Positions 1 to 13,915 of a stretch of 64,000 bases of DNA are shown piece after piece. The stretch spans positions 1-64,000 of the forward strand of contig JACQTO010000125.1 of assembly GCA_016210745.1 (NCBI GenBank). The letters run 5' to 3'. Made by a program: the position numbers and the translations under genes. Each line of letters begins with the position of its first letter. Position 1 is the first letter of the stretch. Below the pieces are notes generated by a model, which saw only the letters and a program-made list of their open reading frames with translations, was not told the DNA's origin and made no database searches. This stretch comes from Betaproteobacteria bacterium. GTDB taxonomy: Bacteria; Pseudomonadota; Gammaproteobacteria; Burkholderiales; SG8-39.

Positions 1-1792
1 CCATGATGCTCTTGAGTCCGGCACCGCGCGCCACCTTCAGCGCGTCGATCACCTCGGGCCGCGGCGGGTCGATCATGCCGAGCAGCCCGACGAAGATGAG
101 GTCCTTTTCGACGGTCTCGGGGGTTATGCTTTCCGGGACTTCCTTCAACGGGCGATAAGCCACGCCCAGCACCCGCAGCGCGTTGCTCGCCATATCGTGG
201 TTCTGCTCGAGTACCGCCTTGCGCATTTCCTCCGTGAGGCCGACCGCCTTGCCGCTCTCCACCTTGTGGCCGCACAGATCGAGGATGACATCGGGCGCGC
301 CCTTGACGAAGGCAATGATCGGCGGATAGTCGAAACCCGAACCGGAAGCCCGCGCCTGAGAGCCATCGGGGCGGTGGATTGTGGTCATCCGCTTTCTGTC
401 CGAATCGAACGGGATCTCCTGAATTCGGGGCAAAGCCTTTTCCAACTCCTCGCGACGGTAACCGCCCTTCGCAGCGACGACGACCATGGCGCCTTCCGTG
501 GGATCGCCGATGATCTGCCAGGAGCGCCTCCCCGATTCGTCGGTTCTTTCGTCCAGCTTCGCGTCGTTGCAGACGAGCGCACCCTGGAGCAGGAGCGTCG
601 CGTCCGGATCCGCCAGCGGCTTGAACGCGTCCTTACCCAGGAAGAACTCTCCGCTCGGGCTATAGCCTTCTCCGGTGATCCGGAACCGCTTGCCGCCGGC
701 CCACCCCTGGACAACCGTCATCTCGTTCTGCGTCAGGGTGCCGGTCTTATCCGAACACACCACGGTGGCGCAGCCGAGCGTTTCCACGGCGGGGAGTTTG
801 CGGATCAGCGCATGGTGCTTGATCATCCGCTGCATCCCGAGGGCGAGGCAGATGGTCACGATGGCCGGGAGACCTTCTGGAACGGCCGCGATGGCAAGGC
901 TCACCGCGGTCATGAACAGATTGATGATGTCCTTCTTCTCGGTTTGCAAATAATTCATGAAGCCGCCACTCAAGGCTTCAGTGAGGTGCGTATCGCGGAA
1001 CAGTCCGTAGATGAAAACGACGGCGCAAATGGCCAGGCATGCCGTTCCGAGAACTTTCCCCAGGTGCTCGAGCTTCTGCTGCAGCGGCGTGTCCTCGGCC
1101 TCGAAGGACTGGATCATCTCGGCGATAAGACCGATCTGGGTGTTCATCCCGGTGCCGGTCACGATGCCCCTGCCCCGTCCATAGGTGATGAGGGTTCCCA
1201 TGAAAGCGGTGTTCTTGCGGTCGCCCAGGGGTATTTCCTTGTCCAGCACTACCCCGGCGTTCTTCTCGACCGGGACCGATTCGCCTGTCAGCGAGGCTTC
1301 CTCAATCTTCAGATTGACGCTCTCGGCGAGCCGCAGATCCGCCGGAACATAGTTTCCGGCCTCCAACAGGACGATATCGCCCCCGACGATCTCCCGGCCG
1401 GGGATCGTTATCTGGTGGCCGTCGCGTATGACCTGGGCATTGGGGGCAGACATTTTCTTCAGGGCAGCCAGGGCCTGTTCGGCCTTCGATTCCTGAATGA
1501 CACCGACCACGGCATTCAGCACCACGATGAACATGATGGCTATCGAATCCACCCACTCGCCGAGCGCGAGCGAGACCAGCGCCGCGATAATCAGGATGAT
1601 GACGAGGTAATTGTTGAACTGATCCCATAGGAGCGAGAAAAACCCGGGCCGCGGGCGTTCCGTCAATTCATTGGCGCCGAATTTCGCCAAGCGCTCCTGC
1701 GCCTGTTGCTGCGTCAGACCTCGTTCGATGTGGGTCTGAAAGCTGCCGATAAGTTCATCGATCGGCTTACCGTGGGATTCTCTATCTTGCAT
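1..1792 (-). CDS. P-type cation-transporting ATPase (Ca2+/PMA-like), partial, runs off the window start
   Basis: Manual reverse-strand translation from ATG at 1792: [43 protein letters not shown]..., with TGES and [18 protein letters not shown] motifs. Absent from the ORF track because it is open at the edge. Confidence 0.93.
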
Positions 1793-1962: not shown

Positions 1963-1977
1963 ATTACAAGTCGTAAT
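1963..1977. promoter_or_regulatory. LysR-type dyad candidate ATTACAAGTCGTAAT (ATTAC-N5-GTAAT)
   Basis: Dyad of the same form occurs at 2529 and 6591; lies upstream of the minus-strand ATPase. Confidence 0.45.
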
Positions 1978-1979
1978 CA

Positions 1980-2298
1980 TTTGAATTGATCAGAACGCCC
2001 TGACGGGCATGACCACCGTGCAGTTCGAATCTGCGTTTGCTCACACGCTCGAACAGCAGAGATCCGACGGTTTCGGTCAACTTCTTCTCCTGCACCAATA
2101 CCGTGGCTGCGCCACGGATAGTTCGTCGGCGGCGTGGGCACGGTTCCCGGATTTGTCGATCGATTCAAGGACCTGCACTGAAGCAATATTCCGTGTTTGA
2201 GGTGGCGTCGTATCCTTCTATGCAGGGGTTTCCTGTGCCGGTAAAGCCAGTCAATCCGCATGCCGGAGCCCCGCCCCAAAAGCAATGCGGCCTTCACC
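1980..2298 (-). pseudogene. Decayed LysR-family regulator N-terminus (frameshifted)
   Basis: Minus-strand pieces in different frames match the intact LysR at 6905: RRHLKHG vs RRYLKHG; RAHAADELSVAQP vs RAAEELHIAQP; VQEKKLTETVGSLLFERVSKR vs VQIKKLTETIGLPLFEQVGKR. Confidence 0.8.
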
Positions 2299-2317: not shown

Positions 2318-2465
2318 AAAAAAAGACCTCGCCCGTCTAGGCAAAGGTCTCGCTTACAACGCTTAGGTTGTCGCCAGGACCGGGGACTATTGTCCCGAGA
2401 TGACGGCCCTCGCAGGGCGGCCACGCAGATGCCGCCCAAGCTACTCCCCTTTGGAGGGGGCGCCC
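2318..2465 (-). ncRNA. yybP-ykoY (Mn2+) riboswitch candidate A, with terminator-like 3' stem and U7
   Basis: Minus strand: AAAGGGGAGTAGC ... GCCGTCATCTCGG ... GTAAGCGAGACCTTTGCC, then AGACCT-N15-AGGTCT-TTTTT. Confidence 0.85.
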
Positions 2466-2528: not shown

Positions 2529-2543
2529 ATTACGAACAGTAAT
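2529..2543. promoter_or_regulatory. LysR-type dyad candidate ATTACGAACAGTAAT
   Basis: ATTAC-N5-GTAAT between the divergent riboswitch leaders A and B. Confidence 0.45.
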
Positions 2544-2696: not shown

Positions 2697-2847
2697 GGCT
2701 TCGCTGAGGGGAGTAGCTTCGACAGCCGGCAGGGCTGTCCGCAGTGTGGCCGTCAATCCGGGAACCCATCCCCGGCCCCACTGGCGCGTGCGGCAATCGA
2801 GCGCCGCACTTTGCAAGCGAGACCTCGCCCGACTCAGCGGGTCTCGT
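2697..2847 (+). ncRNA. yybP-ykoY (Mn2+) riboswitch candidate B, upstream of usp and P-type ATPase
   Basis: GAGGGGAGTAGC ... GGCCGTCAATCCGG ... GCAAGCGAGACCTCGCC, then a CGAGACC / GGTCTCG competing stem. Confidence 0.85.
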
Positions 2848-2946: not shown

Positions 2947-3432
2947 ATGACCCGCATCCTCATTCCTGTTCTCGACTCGGTGAATTCAGGCCCGGCCGTA
3001 AGACACGTTATCGATGAATTCCTGCACGGTGAGCTGATGGAGGTGCAGCTGCTGCACTTGCCCGCCTCACCCACCTACCGGGTCGCTCATTGGTTATTGG
3101 GCAAGAACGGCGGCGCGGCCGACAAAGCGCTGCAATCCGCACGGGATTTGCTGGAGAGGGTTCACGTGCCGTGCGCGGTGCATTCCGGCTCCGGGAACAA
3201 GGCCCTGGCTATCAACGCCGCGGCGCAGCGGCTGAAGACCGATCGCATCGTCCTCGGCACGGCGCGCCATTGGTCGGCTACCCGTATGACCGAAGACTCG
3301 GTGATCCAAGAGGTTCTCGATACTGCGCCGGTGCCCGTGACCTTGGTGGCGGGCAAGGCGGTGTCTCGGGTCGAGCAATACGGGGTCGCCGCGGGACTCG
3401 GCGCCACACTGTGGCTGATCCTCGTCGAATGA
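2947..3432 (+). CDS. Universal stress protein (UspA-like)
   Basis: MTRILIPVLDSVNSGPAVRHVIDEF..., with TDRIVLGTARHW...VIQEVLDTAPVPVTLV. Confidence 0.8.
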   Translation: MTRILIPVLDSVNSGPAVRHVIDEFLHGELMEVQLLHLPASPTYRVAHWLLGKNGGAADKALQSARDLLERVHVPCAVHSGSGNKALAINAAAQRLKTDRIVLGTARHWSATRMTEDSVIQEVLDTAPVPVTLVAGKAVSRVEQYGVAAGLGATLWLILVE

Positions 3433-3572: not shown

Positions 3573-6449
3573 ATGGACAAAGTGCTTTCAGCCAACCGCA
3601 ATAGGAAGACCATCAATGGCGCGGCGAGCTCGCCGGACGCGGATGCGCCGATAACCGAGACCGCGCCGGCAACGAAAACGCGGGCCTCTTCGATCGCGAC
3701 ATCCGGGGACAATGCGAAAGCGACGGCGAGGATACCGTGGCAATGTTTGAGTGCCGATGAAGCGCTGGCGCGGCTGGATGTGTCGCGCGAGCGAGGTCTC
3801 TCTGCGACGGCGGTTTCAGAACGCCTCGAGCGCTTTGGGCATAACGAGATCCGCGAGCAGAAACGCCGCAGCCCATGGCGCATGCTGGCGGAACAATTCA
3901 CCGAATTCATGATCATCGTGCTGATGGTCGCGGCGGCGATCTCGGCCCTGATCGGTGAACCCGAAGATAGTTTCGTGATCATGGCGATCGTTCTGCTCAA
4001 CGGCGTCATCGGTTTCATTCAGGAGTACCGCGCGGAGCGCGCGATTGCGGCGCTGAAGCGGCTGGCCGCGGCGAGCGCCCGGGCGCTGCGCGAGGGCAAG
4101 GTGGTCGAGATACCCGCGGCCCAGCTTGTGCCCGGGGATATCGTGTTGCTCGAAGCAGGCAACGTGGTTCCAGCCGACCTGCGCCTGATCGAATCGGCTG
4201 CGCTCAAAGTGGAGGAAGCCGCCTTGACCGGGGAGTCGGTGCCGGTCGAAAAGGATCTGCGGCCACTGCCGGACCAAGACCAGCAGGTCGGCGACCGGAA
4301 GAACATGGCGTTCAAGGGAACCACGATCGCCTACGGGCGTGGCCGCGGCGTCGTTATCGCCACCGGCATGCAGACCGAGCTGGGCACCATCGCCAGCCTG
4401 CTCGCCGACAAATCCGAGGTCAGGACGCCGTTGCAGAAGCGCTTGACGGCGTTCGGCAAGCGCATCGCTCTCGTGTGCCTCGTGGTTTGCGCGGTTGTGT
4501 TCGCGCTGGGCGTCATGCGTGGCGAGCCGTTGGCGCTCATGTTCCTCACCGCCGTGAGTCTCGCCGTCGCCGCAATACCCGAAGCGCTGCCGGCGGTCGT
4601 GACGACTTCCCTCGCGCTGGGCGCCTACAAGATGGTGAAAAGAAACGCGCTTATCCGTCGTCTGCCGGCAGTGGAGACCTTGGGTTCGGTCAGCTACATA
4701 TGTTCGGACAAGACCGGGACTTTGACGCAGAACAAGATGCGCGTCGAACAGGTCTGGGCCGATGGGCAGCTGCTGTCGGCCAAGCAACCCTTGGCAAAGC
4801 AAAGCGAGGGCCAACAACTGCTGTACGCCGCCTTGGCCCTGAACAATGACGCCGTCATTGGCGAGGGCGGAAACGACACGGGAGATCCCACCGAGATTGC
4901 GTTGCTGCGCGAGGCGCGTGCGGCGGGACTTGAAAAAAGCGCGCTCGAGGCCGCCTCGCCGCGGGTCGCCGAACTGCCTTTCGACTCCGAACGCAAATGC
5001 ATGACGACTGTGCACCGGGCTGAGCACGACTTTGTCGCGTTCACCAAAGGTGCACCGGAAAAGCTCGTAGAGCGCTGCAAGGCCTCGTTCGTCGCGGGCG
5101 TGCGGACGCCGATCGACAAGGATGCCGTGCTGCGCTGCGCCGAGCGCATGGCGGAAAGCGGTCTGCGCGTGATGGCGATCGCGTATCGGCCTTGGGTGGA
5201 AATCCCCGAACCCCTGACGCCGGAAGCGGCGGAGTGCGGGCTCATATTTCTCGGCTTGGTGGGAATGATGGATCCGCCGCGCCCGGAGGCCCAGGAGGCG
5301 GTGGCCATGTGCAAATCGGCGGGAATCACCCCCGTGATGGTCACGGGCGATCACCCGGTGACGGCGCGCGCCATCGCCCAGCGCCTCGGCATCATCGGCG
5401 AGGGCGGCCGCGTGATTACCGGCAAGGAACTGGCGGACCTTTCTCCGGAGGAATTTCGCAGACAGGTGAAGGACATTTCGGTCTACGCCCGTGTCGATCC
5501 TTCGCAGAAGATCAACATTGTGGAGGCGCTCCAGGCGCGCGGGGAGTATGTCGCCATGACCGGCGACGGGGTGAACGACGCACCGGCCATCAAACGCGCC
5601 GAGATCGGCGTCGCGATGGGCAAGATCGGCACCGATGTCGCGCGCGAAGCATCGCACATGGTGCTGCTGGACGACAATTTCGCCACCATCGTCGGCGCCG
5701 TGCGCGAGGGAAGGCGCATCTACGACAATATCCGCAAGTTTATCCGCTTCGTCATGGGCGGGAACTCCGGGGAGATCTGGACCATCGCGGCCGCGCCCAT
5801 GCTTGGCTTGCCGCTTCCACTGCTGCCGATCCAGATTCTCTGGGTCAATCTGATCACCGATGGCCTTCCGGGGCTGGCGCTCGCAGCGGAGCGCGAAGAG
5901 CGCAACGTCATGCGCCGCGCGCCTAGGCCCGCGACCGAGAGCGTATTCGCGCACGGTCTGTGGCAGCACACCTTGTGGGTGGGACTGCTCATTGGGGCGA
6001 TTTGCATCGCGCTTCAGTCCTGGGCCATGAACCGCGGTTCGGAAAACTGGCAGACCGTCGTATTCACCGCCCTGGCCATGTGCCAGATGTACCACGTGCT
6101 CGCGATCCGTTCCGAGCGTGACTCGACCTTTACGATCGGGTTTTTCTCCAATCTGCCTTTATGCGGGGCAGTCGCACTGACGCTCTTGCTTCAGTTCGCG
6201 GTTATCTACATTCCCGCGCTCAACCCGATTTTCAAGACCCAGCCGCTGACCGGCGTGGAGCTTGCGGCAAGCACGCTGCTGCCTGCGTTGGTGTTCGTCG
6301 GCGTGGAAATCGAGAAATGGATGATAAGGAGGGGATTACTCTACGCTTCCAATCCGGTGATCGCGAAACAACGGCAGGAGTCACTGTCAGGCTCCCCTGC
6401 AAAGAATCGCCCTGATCGTGGGTACGCAATTCATGCCGAAGATACTTGA
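3573..6449 (+). CDS. P-type cation (Ca2+/Mn2+-like) transporting ATPase
   Basis: [42 protein letters not shown]; about 950 aa. ORF track start 3561 is TTG; ATG at 3573. Confidence 0.95.
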   Translation: MDKVLSANRNRKTINGAASSPDADAPITETAPATKTRASSIATSGDNAKATARIPWQCLSADEALARLDVSRERGLSATAVSERLERFGHNEIREQKRRSPWRMLAEQFTEFMIIVLMVAAAISALIGEPEDSFVIMAIVLLNGVIGFIQEYRAERAIAALKRLAAASARALREGKVVEIPAAQLVPGDIVLLEAGNVVPADLRLIESAALKVEEAALTGESVPVEKDLRPLPDQDQQVGDRKNMAFKGTTIAYGRGRGVVIATGMQTELGTIASLLADKSEVRTPLQKRLTAFGKRIALVCLVVCAVVFALGVMRGEPLALMFLTAVSLAVAAIPEALPAVVTTSLALGAYKMVKRNALIRRLPAVETLGSVSYICSDKTGTLTQNKMRVEQVWADGQLLSAKQPLAKQSEGQQLLYAALALNNDAVIGEGGNDTGDPTEIALLREARAAGLEKSALEAASPRVAELPFDSERKCMTTVHRAEHDFVAFTKGAPEKLVERCKASFVAGVRTPIDKDAVLRCAERMAESGLRVMAIAYRPWVEIPEPLTPEAAECGLIFLGLVGMMDPPRPEAQEAVAMCKSAGITPVMVTGDHPVTARAIAQRLGIIGEGGRVITGKELADLSPEEFRRQVKDISVYARVDPSQKINIVEALQARGEYVAMTGDGVNDAPAIKRAEIGVAMGKIGTDVAREASHMVLLDDNFATIVGAVREGRRIYDNIRKFIRFVMGGNSGEIWTIAAAPMLGLPLPLLPIQILWVNLITDGLPGLALAAEREERNVMRRAPRPATESVFAHGLWQHTLWVGLLIGAICIALQSWAMNRGSENWQTVVFTALAMCQMYHVLAIRSERDSTFTIGFFSNLPLCGAVALTLLLQFAVIYIPALNPIFKTQPLTGVELAASTLLPALVFVGVEIEKWMIRRGLLYASNPVIAKQRQESLSGSPAKNRPDRGYAIHAEDT

Positions 6450-6590: not shown

Positions 6591-6605
6591 ATTACGATTC
6601 GTAAT
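6591..6605. promoter_or_regulatory. LysR-type dyad candidate ATTACGATTCGTAAT
   Basis: ATTAC-N5-GTAAT (TCATTACGA-T-TCGTAATGA) upstream of the promoter at 6628. Confidence 0.5.
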
Positions 6606-6627
6606 GAACTGCAATAAGCGTAACTGC

Positions 6628-6656
6628 TTGATGGGCAATGTCTTCTCTGCTATAAA
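6628..6656 (+). promoter_or_regulatory. sigma70-like promoter, TTGATG-N17-TATAAA
   Basis: Near-consensus -35/-10 with 17 nt spacing just upstream of riboswitch C. Confidence 0.65.
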
Positions 6657-6684
6657 GAAACTGAGTGTCTTGGCGAAAGCCGGA

Positions 6685-6817
6685 CATCCCTCTGAAGGGG
6701 AGTAGCTTCGGCAGCCGGTGGCTGCTGTGACGCGGTCGTCAATACGGGCTTCGGCCCCGGTCGCGCCAGCGTCGTTGATACGTGCAAGCGAGACCTTTGC
6801 CCATTGGGTGAAGGTCT
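6685..6817 (+). ncRNA. yybP-ykoY (Mn2+) riboswitch candidate C, upstream of LysR gene
   Basis: GAAGGGGAGTAGC ... GTCGTCAATACGG ... GCAAGCGAGACCTTTGCC, then an AGACCT / AGGTCT competing stem. Confidence 0.87.
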
Positions 6818-6825
6818 GTCCCGGA

Positions 6826-6857
6826 CAGCGGCCTTCATCTTGAGGTGAAGGCCGCTG
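6826..6857 (+). other. 12-bp hairpin CAGCGGCCTTCA / TGAAGGCCGCTG between riboswitch C and LysR
   Basis: Perfect inverted repeat with loop TCTTGAGG. Confidence 0.65.
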
Positions 6858-6904
6858 TGCGTTTACGGCATGGCGGTATGGCAATTGATTCGAGGAGGAT
6901 CGCC

Positions 6905-7858
6905 ATGCTGCAACCGGGAATACGACGCTACCTCAAGCACGGAACGCTTCCGCAACTTCGCGTTTTCGAGGCAAGCGCGAGGCTGGGAAGTCTTACCCGC
7001 GCCGCCGAAGAACTTCACATCGCCCAGCCTACCGTCTCAGTGCAGATCAAGAAACTCACCGAAACTATTGGCCTGCCGTTGTTCGAACAGGTCGGCAAGC
7101 GCCTCTACTTGACCGAGGCGGGCCAGCGCCTTTTCGCCGGCTGCCAGGAGGTATTTCGCAGCTTGTCGACGCTCGAGGAATCACTGAACGGCATGCGCGC
7201 CATGGAGAACGGGCGACTGCGGCTGGCGGCCAGTTCCACGGGCAAGTACTTTGCTCCGCGCATGCTCGGTGCCTTTATCCAGCGCTATCCGCAAGTCGAT
7301 GTCTCGCTGGAGATCCACAACTGGAAGACGCTGATCGACCGGCTCGCGAACAACCAGGATGACCTGTATCTTTTCGCCGCCCCGCTCGGGAGGGACGACG
7401 TCGTAACCCAGGCGCTTCTGCCGAATCCGCTGGTCGTCTTTGCGCGCGACGATCATCGGCTTGCCGGCGAGCGTCAGATTGCCTTCGAGCGCATCGCCGC
7501 GGAGCCGCTCCTCATGCGCGAACCCGGGTCCGGCACTCGGCTGCTCGCCATGAAACAGTTCGAACTGCGCGGACTCACCCCGAAGATCAGACTGGAGCTG
7601 AGCACCGACGAGGCGATCAAGGAAGCCATCCGTGCCGGTCTGGGTGTGTCGATCATGTCACGGTTCACGCTCGGATCGGAGCCCGAACCTTCGCGACTGA
7701 TTTGCCTGGATGTCGAGGGCTTCCCACTCGAGAACCACTGGCACTTCGCCTACCCGGCAGGCAAGCAGCTCACGGCAACGGCGCGGGCGTTCCTGGATTT
7801 TGCGCGTCTCGAGGCCAAGGGACTGGCCATGGAAGGTCTCGAGCACTGCGAGCTCTAG
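6905..7858 (+). CDS. LysR-family transcriptional regulator
   Basis: N-terminal HTH LRVFEASARLGSLTRAAEELHIAQPTVSVQIKKLTETIGLPLFEQVG; GGAGGA SD before ATG 6905. Confidence 0.93.
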   Translation: MLQPGIRRYLKHGTLPQLRVFEASARLGSLTRAAEELHIAQPTVSVQIKKLTETIGLPLFEQVGKRLYLTEAGQRLFAGCQEVFRSLSTLEESLNGMRAMENGRLRLAASSTGKYFAPRMLGAFIQRYPQVDVSLEIHNWKTLIDRLANNQDDLYLFAAPLGRDDVVTQALLPNPLVVFARDDHRLAGERQIAFERIAAEPLLMREPGSGTRLLAMKQFELRGLTPKIRLELSTDEAIKEAIRAGLGVSIMSRFTLGSEPEPSRLICLDVEGFPLENHWHFAYPAGKQLTATARAFLDFARLEAKGLAMEGLEHCEL

Positions 7859-12050: not shown

Positions 12051-13237
<1,187 letters not shown>

Positions 13238-13267
<30 letters not shown>

Positions 13268-13915
13268 GTCTCTAAAACCATGCTGTTGACGTGCCTTATC
13301 AGGAGTGCGGCTCTGCGCGGGTATTTCCCCGAACCATGCGCCGATTACCTCGCCCGCCTCTTCGATTCCGGTTCGTTTCAGGCTGGAAAACAGCTGTGCG
13401 CTCCACAAGGGCGAGCGCGAAAAGAGCTCGCGACGCACCTCTTCCAAAACCTTTCGCGCTTCCGCGCGTGAGAGTTTATCCGCTTTCGAAAGCAGCGCGT
13501 GCATCGGCTTGCCGGTTACCTGAAACCATTCGAGCAGACCCCAGTCGAGCTCGGTCAGGGCATGGCGTATGTCCATGACGAGGACAAGTCCGGCAAGCGC
13601 TGAACGCGTGTGCAGGTAATCCCCGAGCAGCCTTCCCCAGGGTTTGCGCGCGTGCTTCGCGATCTTGGCGTAGCCGTAGCCGGGCAGGTCGACGAGAAAG
13701 CGATCGTCACCCAGACTGTAATAATTGATAAGCTGGGTTCTCCCCGGGGTCTTGCTCACGAATGCAAGGCGCCCCTGACCGACCAGCGTGTTGAGGGCGC
13801 TGGACTTGCCGGCATTCGAGCGGCCGGCGAAGGCAACCTCACAGCGGCTCTCCGCCGGCAGATCCCAGGGCTCCAGGGCGCTTTTGAAGAAAATGGCCTG
13901 CCGAAAGAGACTCAT
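13238..13915 (-). CDS. engB: Ribosome biogenesis GTP-binding protein EngB/YsxC
   Basis: EVAFAGRSNAGKSSALNTLVG...KTPGRTQLINYYSLGD...DLPGYGYAK...LSKADKLSR. Start ATG 13915. Confidence 0.95.

Follow-up and report, generated by a model that had tools for sequence, protein, structure and literature searches.

A yybP-ykoY-class riboswitch leader ahead of a LysR-type regulator gene and a proposed relay to metal exporters in betaproteobacteria

The locus and its leader RNAs

The window, i.e., the whole stretch of 64,000 nucleotides analysed here, belongs to a 5.2 Mb betaproteobacterial draft genome assembled in 270 contigs. Near its start lie two P-type ATPase genes, a universal stress protein family gene, a gene for a LysR-type regulator and three leader RNAs of one class, designated A, B and C (Table 1). 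A sequence-only reading of the segment 6591-7858 had described a LysR gene placed under its own Mn2+ riboswitch; its coordinates all proved correct on direct inspection of the sequence, the observation itself is confirmed, and the riboswitch-LysR arrangement is kept well beyond the window. The LysR protein carries an HTH_1 domain (74.0 bits) and a LysR_substrate domain (182.4 bits), and its closest named relatives are found in MAGs, e.g., Betaproteobacteria bacterium RBG_16_66_20 (82% identity). It is not a member of the CbbR family, since its score against NCBIfam NF045990 is 209.7 bits for a cut-off of 450 bits and it falls outside the CbbR group (support 100/98) in the tree. Further along the window, an anti-hemB RNA (Rfam RF02837, 73.6 bits) occupies positions 13178-13269 (+), just upstream of a minus-strand hemB-like gene.

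Table 1. Features of the riboswitch-LysR locus in window coordinates
Feature	Position	Strand	Description
P-type ATPase A	1-1792	-	Type IIA cation ATPase; cut by contig end; ATG 1792
Dyad ATTACAAGTCGTAAT	1963-1977		Upstream of P-type ATPase A
Broken second lysR	~2009-2213	-	5' part only, frameshifted
Terminator-like hairpin with U-run	2327-2346	-	Behind leader A, overlaps aptamer 3' end; scan found 1 vs shuffle mean 1.3, not significant alone
Leader A aptamer	2340-2456	-	Same class as leader C; R1 99.2 bits (in training set)
Dyad ATTACGAACAGTAAT	2529-2543		Between divergent leaders A and B; -10-like TTTAAT at +42, A side
Leader B aptamer	2701-2830	+	Same class; R1 80.2 bits (in training set); compensatory changes in P1.1
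Universal stress protein family gene	2947-3432	+	Behind leader B; Pfam PF00582
P-type ATPase B	3573-6449	+	Type IIA cation ATPase
Dyad ATTACGATTCGTAAT	6591-6605		Candidate LysR operator, T-N11-A; centre ~-64 from inferred lysR start
Promoter-like TTGATG-N17-TATAAA	6628-6656	+	TTGATG 6628-6633, 17-nt spacer, TATAAA 6651-6656; before leader C
Leader C aptamer	6690-6801	+	Before lysR; R1 105.5 bits (in training set)
Hairpin H1	6791-6817	+	12 bp; P1.1 3' strand (ACCUUU) pairs downstream; alternative to aptamer closing helix (folds)
Hairpin H2	6825-6858	+	15 bp; a similar hairpin follows leader A and occurs in close relatives
Shine-Dalgarno GGAGGA	6894-6899	+	Read from sequence
LysR-type regulator	6905-7858	+	ATG 6905, stop 7858; 317 aa; HTH_1 + LysR_substrate; N-terminal RRYxKHG/RRYxRHG extension; separate from CbbR

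The assignment of the leaders to the Mn2+-responsive yybP-ykoY class, already put forward from the sequence alone, is borne out by covariation and by homology to the E. coli alx and mntP leaders. A four-way junction, as in the solved Lactococcus structure, was fitted to 24 leaders with 90% of cells paired and with 20 of 33 pairs changed on both sides versus 10 in shuffles, while 28 of the 33 pairs covary across 96 leaders in an alignment that was itself fitted to the structure; none of 500 shuffles reached values as high in either case. Model R1, built from the 24 leaders and from no E. coli sequence, matches the alx leader (E 2.4e-10), and model R2, built from the 96, matches both alx (1.6e-10) and mntP (2.1e-9), these E-values being rough because of a short calibration. 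In the source genome, R1 finds exactly three matches, namely leaders A, B and C. The loop cores GGGAGTAGC and CGTCA are invariant in all 24 leaders, which thus contain the conserved yybP-ykoY cores GGGGAGUAG(C) and CGUCA. Mn2+ is presumably the ligand. Four short leaders (L157, L160, L162 and L163) carry one extra C just before the L1 core (AAAGCGGGAGTAG vs AAAGGGGAGTAG), and they appear to switch at the ribosome site.

The Rfam model RF00080 gives no match at its gathering threshold on the window leaders (leader A, 19.2 bits for a cut-off of 45). This threshold does not discriminate here, because the same model scores the known mntP leader of E. coli at 44.9 and in Rfam 15 does not match the alx leader (L333 1873-2001) even at E up to 1; the gathering scan was therefore rejected as a test of the RNA class, and leaders of this kind are probably under-annotated. 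Matches to RF02867 (ncS011) were likewise discarded, since at the window they cover only the GGCCUUCA hairpin and stay below threshold. A canonical RF00080 element (73.5 bits) is present on another contig of the same genome (L172 7838-7994, G000:C204), before a GDT1-family cation antiporter gene.

Folding predictions indicate that, in most leaders, the 3' strand of the aptamer closing helix P1.1 could pair with downstream sequence, as it does in hairpin H1. The alternative hairpin is a terminator with a U-run in several leaders, e.g., L167, L216, L218 and L221, and covers the ribosome site in the short leaders L157, L160 and L162, and both types would give a Mn2+-ON switch. Such ON switching has been described for mntP and in Bacillus (PMC11647493). 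In leader C, H1 has no U-run. Release of the start codon and Shine-Dalgarno sequence of this leader was also considered and set aside, as the ribosome site was 0.30 unpaired whether or not P1.1 was forced in folding.

The sequence-only reading had further proposed that the regulator acts on the same riboswitch-controlled transporters. The riboswitch class, the riboswitch-LysR order and a conserved operator-like dyad are supported, but this part finds no support in that form. Leader A, at first taken for the leader of an ATPase gene, is followed by the frameshifted remnant of a lysR gene (tblastn E 1.4e-7 in two frames; 38.3 bits at the DNA level vs a shuffle maximum of 22.9) and, thus, probably belonged to a second riboswitch-lysR copy. 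The dyad at 1963 lies ahead of ATPase A itself; the orthologues of this gene, which in close relatives are the divergent partner of lysR, also have a dyad, but no riboswitch.

Conservation of gene order and of the candidate operator

Searches of 149 relatives with the LysR protein and with RNA model R1 converged on the same places. Among the 96 aptamers collected, 45 precede a gene of the window LysR's family (leader A being included in this automatic count through the broken lysR) and 39 precede TerC, whereas the remaining ones precede outer-membrane efflux, Na/Ca exchanger, CitMHS-like or ion-channel genes or a universal stress protein gene (window leader B), two having no gene assigned. Some of these other positions, i.e., before outer-membrane efflux (L231, L253, L328), CitMHS/NhaD-like (L213, L217), Na/Ca exchanger (L153, L223) and ion-channel (L232, L235) genes, may mark further routes of Mn2+ efflux.

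Because LysR and RNA searches both fed this set, a cleaner test of adjacency is provided by a separate order sample of 399 genomes, which was searched independently of the RNA with a protein profile for LysR proteins bearing the RRYxRHG extension, although the profile was built from ten family members, several of them originally found via the RNA. This search returned 24 such proteins at 120 bits or more, two of them at contig edges, and an aptamer lies directly upstream on the same strand in 20 of the 22 members with readable upstream DNA, versus none of seven CbbR-type proteins of similar score in the same sample. The sequence-only reading had named conservation of this synteny as a check, and it holds in both collections. 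At this stringency, the phylum sample yielded no member of the family among its other 397 genomes. Two full-length members lack the riboswitch (L314, G402:C28; L315, G255:C236) and adjoin a phosphoesterase-like gene.

The divergent neighbour was recorded at 48 riboswitch-LysR loci. Fifteen have a P-type ATPase in this position, always without an own aptamer, and 28 have TerC, of which 14 carry an aptamer and 14 do not; the remaining five have neither gene or end at a contig edge.

The three dyads of Table 1 share the strict form ATTAC-N5-GTAAT noted in the sequence-only reading, which would have counted an equal frequency elsewhere in the genome as refuting its proposal. The window has this form at 1963, 2529 and 6591, with none expected in shuffles, and the genome-wide scan found no further copy in the 5.2 Mb assembly, so the objection of a widespread repeat falls away. 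A degenerate form, ATTRC-N5-GYAAT, is exactly present in 22 of the 48 upstream regions versus 0.06 expected from shuffles and, within one mismatch, in 33 versus 1.98, being absent at that level in about a third; these counts are favourably biased because the pattern was generalised from the same 48 loci. It is common to loci with full-length and with shortened LysR proteins. As a finder of further targets across genomes, this pattern was abandoned as too loose, with 2 to 19 sites per genome.

Moreover, the position of the dyad is regular. Upstream of the window lysR it is centred at 6598, 53 nt ahead of the -10 box and at about -64 from the inferred start, where a LysR recognition site usually lies; the TATAAA at +53 from this centre recurs at the same distance in several relatives, and three more have TATAAG or TATACA there. 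A generic sigma-70 scan made no call on the promoter-like element before leader C, and no clear -10 box was found at the expected distance from the 1963 dyad. In the ATPase group, the dyad is mostly 53 nt before the -10 of lysR and 43-45 nt before that of the ATPase, with centres at about -64 and, at the relatives' divergent ATPase, about -56, the starts being inferred from the -10 boxes. With such fixed spacings, the dyad could serve both promoters from activator-like positions. Judged by position, it agrees with a T-N11-A operator at about -65 of its target promoter. These data support a conserved operator-like element and make it a candidate LysR site.

Shortened LysR proteins in relatives

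Most members of the family are full length (299-345 aa). Two members of 221 aa have lost the RD-II lobe by internal deletion, with about 60 LysR_substrate positions remaining, and about 14 members of 105-176 aa, here called minis, consist of the HTH and linker helix only. HTH_1 was recovered in all five minis scanned (53-80 bits) and LysR_substrate was absent from them; no remnant of the effector domain was detected downstream in eight minis examined, and a 176-aa mini contains a possible vestige of that domain, LTLDVEGMP. The minis are present in the single-contig genomes G081, G237 and G332 and, thus, are not assembly breaks, while dN/dS values of 0.07-0.31 in mini pairs argue that they are not decaying genes. 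A further lysR (G037:C72, L244 ~4844), which adjoins a TerC gene with its own aptamer, was not counted as a mini, as it is apparently frameshifted.

In a tree of the DNA-binding part, the minis fall in three or four places and no bootstrap tree gives them a single origin. The branches are weak enough to accommodate such an origin, and repeated loss of the effector domain is therefore likely rather than proven. These losses lie outside the window and were not foreseen by the sequence-only reading. We lean slightly towards the view that the riboswitch in the lysR mRNA functionally replaced the effector domain, so that LysR repeatedly became a sensor-less DNA-binding output while the RNA senses the metal.

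A proposed relay, its alternatives and known systems

The sequences establish the class of the RNA, a conserved gene order, a conserved dyad at fixed spacing and domain losses under purifying selection. We propose, with a probability of roughly 70%, that these parts form a riboswitch-to-regulator relay for the export of manganese or a closely related metal. At high Mn2+, the aptamer in the lysR leader would fold and close helix P1.1, which would withhold its 3' strand from the competing hairpin H1 and allow lysR to be expressed. LysR is then predicted to activate its own gene and the adjoining exporters (TerC or P-type ATPase) by binding T-N11-A dyads that lie some 55-65 bp ahead of their promoters. 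If the exporter also carries an aptamer, this would amount to a coherent feed-forward loop; if it does not, the metal signal would have LysR as its only visible route. The idea of a two-layer circuit, part of the sequence-only reading, finds a good fit in the exporters that lack an own aptamer (15 loci with a P-type ATPase, 14 with TerC). Loss of the effector domain in several lineages would agree with a transfer of sensing to the RNA. The points that weigh against the relay are the full LysR_substrate domain of the window protein, the missing U-run and unchanged ribosome site of leader C, the roughly one third of loci devoid of the dyad, the two aptamer-less members and the sub-threshold RF00080 scores.

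The first of these points bears on the strongest alternative, which is nevertheless unlikely. The riboswitch might set only the amount of LysR, and full-length proteins, that of the window included, would need a small-molecule effector of their own, so that the protein works as an AND gate for Mn2+ and a second signal, the latter a legacy of a CbbR-like ancestor. The window LysR may indeed still need a co-inducer, because it keeps the full domain, as do most of its relatives, and CbbR is its closest curated model even at a score below the cut-off. Conversely, the same leader class, and often the same dyad, is retained with the roughly 14 minis and the two forms without the RD-II lobe, which argues that an effector is dispensable at least there. 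Less probable again is that Mn2+-induced LysR acts as a repressor or autorepressor which shuts its own promoter and perhaps those of the exporters, so that a pulse would take the place of the relay. Autorepression from divergent sites is common among LysR regulators, and the dyad does lie between both promoters; however, its centres, at about -56 and -64, correspond to activating positions and not to the promoter core, and it would make little sense for exporters to be switched off by rising Mn2+.

It is more doubtful still that the leaders, while members of the yybP-ykoY superfamily, recognise another ligand in this lineage and that the circuit does not concern manganese. RF00080 is sub-threshold or absent on these leaders and one branch has the extra C before GGGAGTAG, but that model equally misses alx and falls just short on mntP, whereas R1 and R2 recognise alx and R2 recognises mntP; the invariance of both loop cores and the nature of the targets (TerC, type IIA ATPases and other efflux genes) also speak against it. 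Mere coincidence of riboswitch-LysR adjacency and dyads, for which no support was found, is statistically refuted by conservation across many genera, the 20 of 22 adjacency and the excess of dyads (22 vs 0.06).

If the relay and the replacement of the sensor are true, a protein sensor domain has ceded its role to an RNA sensor, and living lineages preserve the intermediates (full length, RD-II lobe deleted and DNA-binding part alone). Moreover, Mn2+ export in these betaproteobacteria would be under two-layer control, which would account for a Mn2+ response of exporters that have no riboswitch, and the family would be a natural setting in which to test how RNA and protein divide the work of regulation.

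Each part of this system has known counterparts. The leaders resemble the E. coli alx and mntP yybP-ykoY elements in the core GGGGAGTAGC and CGTCA, the four-way junction and the competition of the P1.1 strand with a downstream hairpin, whereas the controlled gene here is a transcription regulator. The yybP-ykoY targets found in the literature are transporters and membrane proteins (PMC3766115, PMC11647493), a census of its regulons names transporters (PMC3766115), and no report of this riboswitch on a LysR gene was found in the open-access literature. The protein is closest, among curated families, to CbbR, the LysR regulator of CO2 fixation genes, and shares its T-N11-A type of site, but differs in its separate tree branch, RRYxRHG extension, metal-exporter partners and riboswitch leader. 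As in divergent LysR-target pairs, regulator and target are transcribed apart from a shared site, although here an ion riboswitch would gate production of the regulator, and some family members have lost the protein sensor. Transcription factors controlled by riboswitches are also known, e.g., through c-di-GMP riboswitches on tfoX-type genes, and there, too, the amount of a regulator depends on an RNA sensor; unlike them, the present case involves a metal-ion riboswitch and a regulator from a ligand-sensing family whose sensor domain has been lost in several lineages. Thus, the parts are of known kinds, while their combination and the loss of a protein sensor under an RNA sensor appear to be new.
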